This document shows positions 27,112-31,076 of a DNA stretch of 41,209 nt, one piece after another. Source of the stretch: Nitrospira sp. (lineage in GTDB: Bacteria > Nitrospirota > Nitrospiria > Nitrospirales > Nitrospiraceae); NCBI GenBank assembly GCA_005116965.1, contig SWDG01000025.1, forward strand, positions 532,933 to 574,141, in the 5' to 3' direction. The notes under the pieces were generated by a model that worked only from the letters and a program-made list of their open reading frames with translations, was not told where the DNA came from and ran no database searches. Both the position numbers and the translations under genes were made by a program. Position 1 is the first letter of the stretch, and every line of letters starts with the position of its first letter.

Positions 27112-29067
27112 ATGCCTACTCCCGCTGCTCAAACGCTCCTTAGTCAGCCAGTACCTCAGAACCTCACAGGCATCGCCTTGCCACGACGCGTAAAGTTTCA
27201 CTCGTCGCCAGGAGACTGGCGCGACGAAGTTCTCTACTTTCTCCTCGTCGATCGATTCAGCGATGGACGAGAAGCGTCACGGCCTCTCCTTGATCGTAAC
27301 CGTCGCGCGGCATTTCGACCTCACGGGCACCACCGACAACCGTGGCGATGGGATCGCTGGGCCGAATCCGGCGCACATCGGTGGCAAGGGGGAACGCTTA
27401 ACGGTGTGGAATCCAAGCTTGGGTATCTGCATGACCTCGGTGTCACTGCGCTATGGTTAAGCCCAGTATTTAAGCAGCGCGGTCACCTTAATACGTTTCA
27501 TGGTTACGGCATTCAACATTTTTTAGATGTCGATCCTCGATTCGGCACGAGAAACGATCTGGTCGCCCTCGTCGATGCGGCGCATGCTCGTGGCATGCGG
27601 ATCATCCTGGACATTATTTTCAACCATTCCGGGTTCAATTGGGTCTATCCAGGAGGGGTCAAGGAACCTGTGTACAAACCGTTTCCGGATCGCTACCCAT
27701 TCGGTTCATGGCTGGGCCGGAGCGGGGAAGAAATCGGTAACCATGTGGATGAACATGAGGCCGGAGTCTGGCCGGCTGAGATGCAGGCCATCGATTCCTA
27801 TACTCGGGCAGGCGTTGGAAATCTCGGGGGCGGCAGCCTGGACGATTTGAATGCGGAGCACAAACGAACGGACTTTTTCACGCTCCGGGATTTTTCGCTC
27901 AGTGCGCCGGGTGTCCTTGATCATCTGGCGGCTTGTTATCGCTACTGGATTGCCCTGACGGATTGCGATGGTTTCCGCATTGATACGTTGAAACATGTGT
28001 CCTACGAGGAGGGGCGAAATTTCTGCGGTGCCATCAAGGAGTTCTCTGCGAATCTTGGCAAGACAAACTTCCTGCTCGTCGGCGAAGTCGCGGGGGGTGA
28101 TTTTGCGCAAGATCGCTTCCTCGATGTGCTTGGACGCAATCTTGATGCAGCCCTTGATATCGGCGGAATGCGGATGACGCTTCAGAATGTGGCGAAGGGG
28201 CTGGCACCTCCGCAGACCTACTTCGATGGCTTCGATGCCGGCAAAGCGGAGATGGGATCGCATCGGAATATCGGTCAGCGGCATGTCTCCATCCTGGACG
28301 ATCACGACCATGTGTTCGGTCACAAGATCCGCTTCTCCAGCGAAGCAGCTTCGGAAGAACAGGTTGTCGCCGGTGTGGCGTTACAGCTGTTTACACTGGG
28401 TATTCCCTGCATTTATTACGGAACAGAGCAGTCATTCGCCGGACCGGAGGAGTCGGAGCGCCGATTTCTTCCTGGCTGGAAGGGTGGCGACCACGCTGAT
28501 CGGTACTTGCGCGAAGCCATGTTCGGCCCGGAGCATCCTCGGGCTGCTGGACGAGCGGGCTTGTCAGTGTCCGACGGGCTGGACCTGACCCTGCCGGGAT
28601 TCGGTCCGTTCGGAACGGCGGGCGCCCACTGTTTCGATCCGAACTTTCATGTCTATCGTCGGATTGCAGCCCTTGCTTCCATTCGCCAACGCTTTCCGGT
28701 GCTGCGCGTAGGACGGCAATATTTACGACCGATCTCGCTCTTCGACGGGCCATTCTTGTTTCGAGGGTCTGGAGAACTTGTCGGATGGTCAAGAATTCTC
28801 AGTGATGAAGAGGCCTTGTGCATTGTCAACGCCCATGGGGCTCAAATACGTGGTGGTGATGTGATGGTAGACGCAGATCTCAACCAGCCTGACATGGCGT
28901 TTACTGTCGTTGCGAACAGCATGGAGGCTGGGGCTGGAACATCGGCTGGGATCGCCCATCCGGTCGCCTCACAGCTCCCCATCAGGCGCCACTCCGACGG
29001 TACCGCGTTCGTGGAGATCCGTAATCTCGCACCGTCTGCTGTCATCGTGGCGGTCAATCATCCGTAG
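27112..29067 (+). CDS. GH13 family (alpha-amylase-like) glycosidase
   Basis: The 651-residue protein has the (beta/alpha)8 GH13 catalytic domain from about 35 to 500, opening DEVLYFLLVDRFSDG. The nucleophile is D291 in CDGFRIDTLKHV, the acid/base E325 in LVGEVAGG, and the third acid D399 in LDDHDH, where families usually have NHD. The DxxxNH region I is LDIIFNHSG. A C-terminal beta-domain follows. There is no signal peptide, so it is probably cytoplasmic and acts on alpha-glucans such as glycogen, or as a glucan-transferring enzyme. GAGAGG precedes the ATG. The precise activity (amylase, cyclomaltodextrinase, trehalose-type) cannot be read from the motifs. Confidence 0.9.
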   Translation: MPTPAAQTLLSQPVPQNLTGIALPRRVKFHSSPGDWRDEVLYFLLVDRFSDGREASRPLLDRNRRAAFRPHGHHRQPWRWDRWAESGAHRWQGGTLNGVESKLGYLHDLGVTALWLSPVFKQRGHLNTFHGYGIQHFLDVDPRFGTRNDLVALVDAAHARGMRIILDIIFNHSGFNWVYPGGVKEPVYKPFPDRYPFGSWLGRSGEEIGNHVDEHEAGVWPAEMQAIDSYTRAGVGNLGGGSLDDLNAEHKRTDFFTLRDFSLSAPGVLDHLAACYRYWIALTDCDGFRIDTLKHVSYEEGRNFCGAIKEFSANLGKTNFLLVGEVAGGDFAQDRFLDVLGRNLDAALDIGGMRMTLQNVAKGLAPPQTYFDGFDAGKAEMGSHRNIGQRHVSILDDHDHVFGHKIRFSSEAASEEQVVAGVALQLFTLGIPCIYYGTEQSFAGPEESERRFLPGWKGGDHADRYLREAMFGPEHPRAAGRAGLSVSDGLDLTLPGFGPFGTAGAHCFDPNFHVYRRIAALASIRQRFPVLRVGRQYLRPISLFDGPFLFRGSGELVGWSRILSDEEALCIVNAHGAQIRGGDVMVDADLNQPDMAFTVVANSMEAGAGTSAGIAHPVASQLPIRRHSDGTAFVEIRNLAPSAVIVAVNHP

Positions 29068-29362: not shown

Positions 29363-30247
29363 ATGGGTCTTCCAGCAGCCGACGTAAACCACACGATGTG
29401 CGATATCCCTCTGACCTGCCCGCAAATTACGCTGGATACCCTTCCTCGTTGTTCATTTCAGCAGAGGGTGAGCTCACACTATCACGCATTCTGGTACCAC
29501 CTTGGGGAACGATTCGCCTGGTCTCGAGGAGCGTATCATGAACGACCGGTCAGGCGGCTTTCGCAACTGAGCGGCATTCAGCAAGCACGTGTCGCCTCGC
29601 TCCAACGACGCTTCCGTGTAGGATTCGAACAGCAGGCGGAACAGTCGACAGCCCTGAAGCAATACGACTATCTTGAGGTGCTGGAACGAACCTGGTCGGC
29701 GCTCGGCTTACCCTATTCAGTAGGTGGAGCTGTTCAGGATATGGGGTCGAGTAACTTCTGGTATGCGGCCGCCTTGCATGCGTTTTTTCAGCCATCGGAA
29801 CTGGTCGGCGTTGAAGTGGAGGGGCACCGGATCTACACCAATGGGTATAGTCGCCTCGACTATGCCCATGGCTATATCCAAAACCTGTCACATACAGAGT
29901 TCATCGTCGGCGACTATGCCGGCTATGATCACCCAGCTGACGTCGTCACCGCGTGGTATCCCTTCGTGACGCCGGACCCTGTGCTGGCCTGGCGGATGCC
30001 GCTCTCAGTGTTAGCGCCGCGCGCATTGTTTTCTCGGGTAGCCCGCAATCTCACCCCTCACGGCTTGTTCGTCATGGTCAACCAAGGACAGGACGAAGCG
30101 GCAATCGCTGCCGCCTGGTGCGAGAAGGTCGGCCTCGTACGGTACGGCTCCTGCGAGGTCAGAACCCTGTTGCGTTCTCGGCGTCCTGCTGTGGTATCGT
30201 GCTGGACAAGCTCACACCTGTCACACGTGCGTCCATACCAGAACTAG
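29363..30247 (+). CDS. Methyltransferase-like protein, degenerate SAM motif
   Basis: The 294-residue protein is not a named family to me. Its C-terminal two thirds follow a class I methyltransferase plan. VQDMGSSN (124-131) sits where motif I should be, without the GxGxG glycines. GVEVEG (149-154) supplies the acidic motif II, GDYAG (183-187) motif III, ADVVTAWYPFVTPD (192-205) motif IV, and LTPHGLFVMVNQG (230-242) the usual LxPGG-type strand. The N-terminal 110 residues are Arg- and aromatic-rich and helical. It may bind a different nucleotide or be catalytically changed. The ribosome binding site is weak. A second unknown gene follows after 10 bases, suggesting a pair. Confidence 0.72.
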   Translation: MGLPAADVNHTMCDIPLTCPQITLDTLPRCSFQQRVSSHYHAFWYHLGERFAWSRGAYHERPVRRLSQLSGIQQARVASLQRRFRVGFEQQAEQSTALKQYDYLEVLERTWSALGLPYSVGGAVQDMGSSNFWYAAALHAFFQPSELVGVEVEGHRIYTNGYSRLDYAHGYIQNLSHTEFIVGDYAGYDHPADVVTAWYPFVTPDPVLAWRMPLSVLAPRALFSRVARNLTPHGLFVMVNQGQDEAAIAAAWCEKVGLVRYGSCEVRTLLRSRRPAVVSCWTSSHLSHVRPYQN

Positions 30248-30257
30248 AATTTGCCAT

Positions 30258-31076
30258 ATGAAGCACTCCATCAAGAACACGGAAGACCTTCGGTGGTTCA
30301 TCGGGCATACGGGCGGTTTTCGCTCAGGGTATGTGACCGACCTGCAGATTTCCAAACGCCGTCTCTTCGACGAAGGAACTGCACGGGAGGTACCGGCCGG
30401 TACAACCATCTCGCTCACAATCCGTTATGAAGTTCGTGGATACGTCCGAGTGGCCAAGCTCACGATGACCGGCGTCACGGATTTCTCCGTCTTCGAACAA
30501 GATGGGACTGATTGTTCATCTCTTGGCGTGATCCAGACGGAGTTCAATGCGGGGAAAATGCGCTTCTGGTTCGATCCCCAGGGAGAGCTCTACGTGGTGT
30601 GCGATGAGGCCACGCTGGATGAAATCGCCACGCCGTTCGTGACGGCCGATCAGGCGGCCGAATTCGCTCGATGGATATTCCAGGGCCGAGCTGCCGAAGG
30701 CCCCACGGTGGAGTGGCTGTTACACAAACTGGATCGAGCCGGTCTGCCGTGCGCGTGGCGTGATGCGACGCGGGCGGTCGCGGTTCATCCGGCGGTGCAG
30801 TGGGAGGGCGATCTGATTCCGGCAGGCGAATCTACGGCCAGCGAGGAGCATAGGGTCCACGTCCTGGGCTATGGTCCACTGGAGGGGCAAGGCTTTGGTC
30901 TGATGCTGCGGGTGATGGGGATTCAGGATCGACGGATGAGCCGGATCCTGGAAGTGCTGGCTGATCAGATCACTCAACAATTTGTCGGTGACTGTCTCGT
31001 CGGCACAACGATCATCCCCGGCCGTGAGTGGGAGGGCTGGTTGATTCGGGAACTCCAGACACGACACAGTCGATAA
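30258..31076 (+). CDS. Hypothetical protein, 272 residues
   Basis: I do not recognise this soluble protein. The first 130 residues are beta-rich with alternating hydrophobic and charged strands. The remainder is alpha/beta with a helical segment (RRMSRILEVLADQITQQFVG). No catalytic motif, signal peptide or membrane helix is visible. It starts 10 bases after the methyltransferase-like gene, so the two are probably co-transcribed. It is convergent with the PmtA-like methyltransferase gene, 23 bases away. A partner or regulatory subunit of the upstream protein is conceivable but unsupported. Confidence 0.7.
   Translation: MKHSIKNTEDLRWFIGHTGGFRSGYVTDLQISKRRLFDEGTAREVPAGTTISLTIRYEVRGYVRVAKLTMTGVTDFSVFEQDGTDCSSLGVIQTEFNAGKMRFWFDPQGELYVVCDEATLDEIATPFVTADQAAEFARWIFQGRAAEGPTVEWLLHKLDRAGLPCAWRDATRAVAVHPAVQWEGDLIPAGESTASEEHRVHVLGYGPLEGQGFGLMLRVMGIQDRRMSRILEVLADQITQQFVGDCLVGTTIIPGREWEGWLIRELQTRHSR

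Follow-up and report, generated by a model that had tools for sequence, protein, structure and literature searches.

Within a 41,209 bp stretch of the Nitrospira sp. contig SWDG01000025.1, here called the window and taken from a genome of 3.7 Mb, we analysed two adjacent genes, P1 and P2. We put at roughly 0.55 the probability that P1 encodes a divergent class I enzyme, probably one that binds S-adenosylmethionine (SAM). A predicted fold, a collinear order of motifs, a loop variant found throughout the P1 family and purifying selection were all computed for it. P1 is an accessory gene beside P2, paired with it locally in some lineages. The Nitrospira family carries P2 almost universally, as a separate core protein with a function of its own. 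These results do not support an obligate pseudoenzyme complex; what they support is a methyltransferase fold in a new variant form.

An earlier reading made from the sequence alone had described P1 and P2 as a two-gene unit. Both open reading frames are real, they lie where that reading had placed them, and the gap between them is exactly 10 bases (Table 1). Homologues of both genes are conserved at the protein level, with dN/dS values well below 1 that indicate purifying selection. When the P1-P2 region was scanned for promoters and terminators, the scores were near the shuffled mean. In the pairs measured from the window's genus (g1), the gap is 9-72 bases, with a single value of 177. Because the spacing is short, P1 and P2 probably share a transcript in this genus.

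Table 1. Features of the P1-P2 region, with positions numbered from the first base of the window
Feature	Position	Strand	Details
P1, predicted divergent class I methyltransferase-fold protein	29363..30247	+	ATG at 29363, stop at 30247, 294 aa
P1 variant motif I, D-M-G-S-S-N-F-W-Y-A, residues 126-135	29738..29767	+	Loop joining strand 1 and helix A; 55 aligned copies; predicted strand 123-127 and helix 135-142
P1 E151, acidic residue of motif II closing strand 2, expected to contact the ribose	29813..29815	+	E or D in 55/55 copies; aligns with D85 of the neighbouring methyltransferase
P1 D184, motif III acidic residue past strand 3, expected base contact	29912..29914	+	D in 52/55 copies; aligns with D112 of the neighbouring methyltransferase
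P1-P2 spacer, 10 bases	30248..30257	+	No terminator-like site within the spacer
P2, two-domain core protein of family f1	30258..31076	+	ATG at 30258, stop at 31076, 272 aa
P2 N-terminal domain, residues 8-122, weakly immunity-protein-like	30279..30623	+	8owu_D, Z 8.7; 5v77_A, Z 7.8
P2 second alpha/beta domain, residues 130-250	30645..31007	+	Best match 3c6k_B, Z 9.3; without sequence support
PmtA-like class I methyltransferase, intact motif I E-V-G-V-G-T-G, convergent with P2	31100..31888	-	Orthologue beside P2 in 37/37 loci

Searches of Pfam, NCBIfam and PHROGs with P1 returned no meaningful match, and no curated Pfam methyltransferase model scored above its cut-off for P1 or for 24 diverse members of its family. 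The best curated match was to Methyltransf_23, in one of these 24 (E 0.0042), and, judged from the E value, it falls well under the 27-bit cut-off of that model. Searches of PDB sequences with P1 alone and with profiles gave nothing, or weak matches of the kind expected by chance. The structure predicted for P1 from 32 aligned sequences (pLDDT 80.3, pTM 0.81) has the Rossmann-like order of strands and helices of the class I methyltransferases. When this model was used to query the PDB with Foldseek, 835 matches were returned at E <= 0.001 (best 4.7e-9), and nearly all of the 50 matches listed for each structure search were methyltransferases. On realignment, 992 of 1000 chains had Z >= 8. The highest score was for Rv2258c with SAH (Z 14.6, rmsd 4.6, 189 aligned), with which NodS (Z 14.1, rmsd 3.3, 166 aligned) is tied, as rows less than 1 Z apart were treated as equal.

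Comparison of the P1 profile with that of the neighbouring PmtA-like family, which needs no structure model, gave an hhalign probability of 73.7% (P 2.9e-5) and a collinear alignment spanning motif I through the turn of strand 5. This alignment pairs D126-x-G128 with motif I, the acidic residues of motifs II and III with their counterparts in the neighbour (Table 1), and L-T-P-H-G with R-P-G-G. With a more diverse P1 set the values were 67.8% and 4.9e-5, and P2, used as a negative control against the same PmtA-like profile, scored 0.2%. P1 is thus predicted, from the model, to be a Rossmann protein of the class I methyltransferase type. With SAM-dependent members of this class such as NodS, DnrK and the PmtA-like neighbour, it shares the predicted fold, the order of the motifs, the Asp and first Gly of motif I, the acidic residues of motifs II and III and the Gly turn before strand 5. 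It differs from them in that the second and third glycines of motif I are replaced and followed by N-F-x-Y-A, in an extra aromatic helix at the N-terminus, and in the lack of a convincing match in Pfam or NCBIfam.

The variant loop was followed through 55 aligned copies of P1: 33 from g1, 6 from g18, 4 from g16, 1 from g25, 8 from family f3 and 3 from family f18. The form D-x-G-[SAC]-x-N-F-x-Y-A was found in 52 of these, in three families of Nitrospirota (f1, which includes g1, and f3 and f18). The three departing copies have P after the first G, R at the same place (in the partial row G051, which has a gap at D) or T for N. D126 is present in 54 copies, the other having the gap, N131 is present in 54, and G128, F132, Y134 and A135 are invariant. 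S, A, L, K or Q stands in place of the second glycine and F, without exception, in place of the third; both glycines are absent from all 55 copies. The claim that the motif I glycines had been lost therefore stands for the second and third, but not for the first glycine, which is kept together with the acidic residue. Motifs II-IV and the L-x-P-x-G turn that had been ascribed to P1 were also found, and motifs II and III retain their acidic residues in all or nearly all copies (Table 1). In the neighbouring methyltransferase family, motif I is E-V-G-V-G-T-G in 11 of 12 rows and D-L-G-A-G-T-G in the twelfth, a UbiE-like protein from f3. Of 24 invariant P1 columns, 12 fall in the expected pocket loops, against 4.6 expected (p 3e-4), with the loops picked from general topology after the alignment had been seen.

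According to PMC1282579, none of the three motif I glycines is universal among class I proteins and their replacements are typically small. The same review places residues of motifs I-III near SAM, the acid of motif II contacting the ribose and that of motif III the base, and describes a bulky Tyr in the motif I loop of yeast mtTFB, a non-catalytic relative. By sequence, P1 agrees with both sides: its acidic residues are retained, yet a bulky Phe occupies the place of the third glycine. Mere decay of motif I was ruled out, because the same variant has been kept in f1, f3 and f18. From the pattern of conservation, we conclude that the P1 pocket is likely to be in use.

Nicotianamine synthase and RdmB perform non-methyl chemistry on the class I fold, and both were among the structural matches of P1. 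It is thus conceivable, though in our view unlikely, that P1, with the fold retained, uses a nucleoside ligand, SAM-derived or other, for a different reaction, such as aminoalkyl transfer, hydroxylation or cyclisation. Such a pocket, changed but used, predicts what is seen in P1, where the glycine loop has been swapped for one specific and nearly invariant alternative. According to PMC1282579, both nicotianamine synthase and mtTFB have a modified motif I, and the former transfers another part of SAM. However, that source describes nicotianamine synthases without a motif I acidic residue, which P1 keeps in 54 of 55 copies (one gap), and many ordinary methyltransferases match P1 equally well. 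Nicotianamine synthase, RdmB and mtTFB, non-methylating or non-catalytic proteins with the same fold, were all absent from the PDB sequence matches of P1.

We therefore favour the reading of P1 as a divergent enzyme of the methyltransferase class. It would most likely bind SAM or its product and would pass a methyl group to a substrate that is small or lipid-like, over which the aromatic N-terminal helix may close. The gene for this putative enzyme lies just upstream of P2 in g1 and g18 and is often missing where P2 exists. Several findings count against this reading: motif I has lost two of its three glycines, with a bulky invariant Phe in the third position; just one of the 24 diverse members has even a weak Pfam methyltransferase match; selection is looser in the window's clade; and no genomic context shared among P1 genes names a substrate.

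Median dN/dS values for P1 (NG86) were 0.090 and 0.131 in two clades (21 pairs each). In the window's clade the median was 0.283 (28 pairs, range 0.16-0.48), or 0.245 with the first 30 codons removed; in the same clade P2 had a median of 0.167 (20 pairs) and the PmtA-like gene one of 0.101 (21 pairs). With another set of rows, P1 values in this clade reached 0.58, the highest of them involving locus L066. P1 is constrained, but in this clade selection on it is looser than on P2 or the PmtA-like gene. In L066 (5956-6840), the first approximately 40 residues of P1 resemble those of a distant Nitrospira copy, L050, and the remainder resembles the P1 of the window, which suggests recombination between P1 alleles.

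The two genes differ in distribution. Among 98 related genomes, P1 was found in 40 (32 of 59 from g1 and 8 of 39 from outside it, those eight all from f3) and P2 in 58 (58 of 59 from g1 and none of the 39), a count that includes a 33-residue piece in G026 and a broken copy in G046. P2 lies directly downstream of P1 on the same strand in 31 of the 32 P1 carriers of g1. The exception is G055 (L173:6343-7236), where P1 adjoins orthologues of an aminotransferase, folK and panC, and no P2 was present in the 14 kb fetched; the contamination value for this genome is 6%. On the other flank of this P1 are genes that, from their translations, we take to be thrS- and infC-like. No P1 match was found in 27 of the 59 g1 genomes, and 26 of these 27 have some P2, including the 33-residue piece and the broken copy.

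When 295 genomes of the phylum were searched, P2 was found in 76, all from family f1, corresponding to 76 of the 79 f1 genomes (by listing order, with partial and interrupted copies included). P1 was found in 49, of which 41 are among the 79 from f1, 5 are from f3 and 3 from f18. P2 was present in all 41 P1 carriers of f1, and was not found in the P1-bearing genomes of f3 (8 in the set of 98) and f18. Within f1, the two genes are adjacent in 24 of 24 carriers in g1 and within 0.7 kb of one another in 4 of 4 in g18, and are at separate places in 12 of 12 in g16 and in the one in g25. In four of these 13 unlinked genomes (G148, G183, G276 and G311), P1 and P2 are on one contig and approximately 1 Mb or more apart, and in the other nine they are on different contigs of draft assemblies; g16 accounts for three genomes of the former kind and nine of the latter. 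Two g18 genomes, G195 and G309, contain tandem P1 paralogues (L139:6974-8863 and L140:7827-9764), the first copy having the motif I D-V-G-C-A-N-F-W-Y-A also seen in g16 and the second grouping with g1 copies.

In a quickly built tree of P2 (74 proteins), presence of P1 changes 11 times, 8 of them within the 56 rows from g1. Broken copies were scored as present, support is weak for many branches, and gain and loss are not distinguished. Counting strongly supported branches alone, and using intact P1 as the label, there are 8 changes over the whole tree. P1 is split or interrupted in G001, G034, G051 and G353, and a stop was reported in G323; as the assemblies are drafts, some of the broken copies may be assembly errors. 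Across 117 nearly complete genomes of the order, a profile search detected P1 in 54; these belong to the known genera and to one further genus of f1, g144. Beyond the phylum, the search extended to plasmids, one viral scan for P1 and a single-sequence P1 scan of 84,980 species genomes. The last of these returned 12 loci, the nearest 96% identical (9 Nitrospira sp., 1 Nitrospirae bacterium, 1 Nitrospiraceae bacterium and 1 'uncultured Nitrosospira'). No relatives were found in the plasmid searches, made with P1 and P2, or in the one viral_contigs scan, made with P1 only.

On this distribution we rejected an obligate P1-P2 pair, because P1 is repeatedly absent where P2 is kept, linkage is lost in g16 and g25, and in f3 and f18 there are P1 genes but no P2 was found. 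The description of the genes as a conserved pair is therefore accurate for their adjacency in g1 but does not extend to f1 as a whole, whose 79 genomes include 76 with P2 and 41 with P1. Co-occurrence within Nitrospirota, proposed as a check on the pairing, fails in that P1 changes about eight times within the genus while P2 stays. The sequence-only reading had also suggested that P1, unable to use SAM, is a pseudoenzyme that works in a complex with P2. We consider this quite unlikely. The altered glycine loop with its bulky Phe would suit such a protein, as would the near-constant adjacency, shared strand and short spacing in g1. However, the acidic residues of motifs I-III that would contact the cofactor are kept in nearly all copies, and an obligate complex is contradicted by P2 that persists without P1 in g1, P1 that occurs without P2 in the eight f3 genomes, and the separate locations in g16 and g25. 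P1 and P2 may nevertheless form a complex in genomes that carry both.

That P2 has no recognisable family, as had been stated, held in Pfam, NCBIfam, PHROGs and PDB sequence searches, none of which gave a match. The P2 model (pLDDT 72.2, pTM 0.50) is weaker than that of P1, and no PDB match was found with Foldseek at E <= 0.001. In structural alignments, the N-terminal domain weakly matched 8owu_D, which is the immunity protein PIM7(Bc) (over residues 8-121; Z 8.7, rmsd 2.8, 96 aligned; model mean pLDDT 72), and an uncharacterized protein (5v77_A; Z 7.8, rmsd 4.5, 97 aligned). The best match of the second domain, over residues 134-250, was the N-terminal domain of spermine synthase (3c6k_B; Z 9.3, rmsd 3.3, 95 aligned). 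Scores of 7 to 8 are the usual level of the tool without a clear match, so that 8.7 and 9.3 are just above it, and unrelated proteins reach Z 6-8 on the second domain. The 3c6k_B match raised the idea of a split spermine-synthase-like unit made of the second domain of P2 together with P1, which found no support: P2 and the SpeD-like (S-adenosylmethionine decarboxylase-like) proteins of related genomes gave an hhalign probability of 0.25%, both profiles being shallow.

The site of P2 is fixed. An orthologue of the PmtA-like gene (at least 64% identity) is convergent with P2 in all 37 P2 loci, with or without P1; ten of these loci are copies of genomes present twice in the data, and each was counted once. 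The best NCBIfam match of this gene is phospholipid N-methyltransferase PmtA, at 182 bits against a cut-off of 390. Upstream in many P2 loci are genes that, from their translations, are presumably panC, folK, an aminotransferase and a glutamine-amidotransferase-like gene. In the window, a GH13 alpha-amylase-type gene (27112-29067) lies upstream of P1. Its cluster was found in only 5 of the compared loci, which makes this stretch a variable site flanked by conserved blocks.

The PIM7(Bc) match raises the further possibility that P1 is an effector and P2 its immunity protein, with orphan P2 genes retained after loss of P1. The N-terminal domain of P2 may share a fold with this polymorphic-toxin immunity protein, and every P1 carrier in f1 also has P2. 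The latter is nearly automatic because P2 is near universal in f1. The fixed site in 37 of 37 loci and the occurrence of P1 without P2 in f3 and f18 argue against this explanation. P2 also differs from PIM7(Bc) in its second domain and in being a core gene whose site is fixed, it shows no sequence match to that protein, and a Z of 8.7 is barely above the background level. We regard this explanation as highly improbable.

Away from P2, P1 keeps varied company. One locus from each group was compared, and the neighbours were a universal stress protein and an M90 peptidase in g11, a UbiE-like methyltransferase and a radical SAM protein in g9, an FAD-dependent protein in g7, a GH13 protein with CBM48 and a transglycosylase in g16, and an ABC protein and a phosphatidylserine decarboxylase in f18. 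No shared theme or hint of a substrate was found among these five loci.

In a limited literature search, not by gene name, we found no description of the P1 or P2 genes. More speculatively, and with low confidence, P1 could represent a Nitrospirota family new to the class I fold, with its loop rebuilt for a ligand other than SAM, or for SAM held in another posture for non-methyl chemistry, and with co-regulation alongside the core protein P2 in Nitrospira. Conserved uncharacterised genes make up a large share of what remains to be learned about Nitrospira. Here, a misleading annotation of P1 and P2 as a pair is removed, P2 is revealed as a near-universal gene of the family that is worth attention, and P1 gains a predicted fold and a testable question about its cofactor, namely whether the N-F loop binds SAM.
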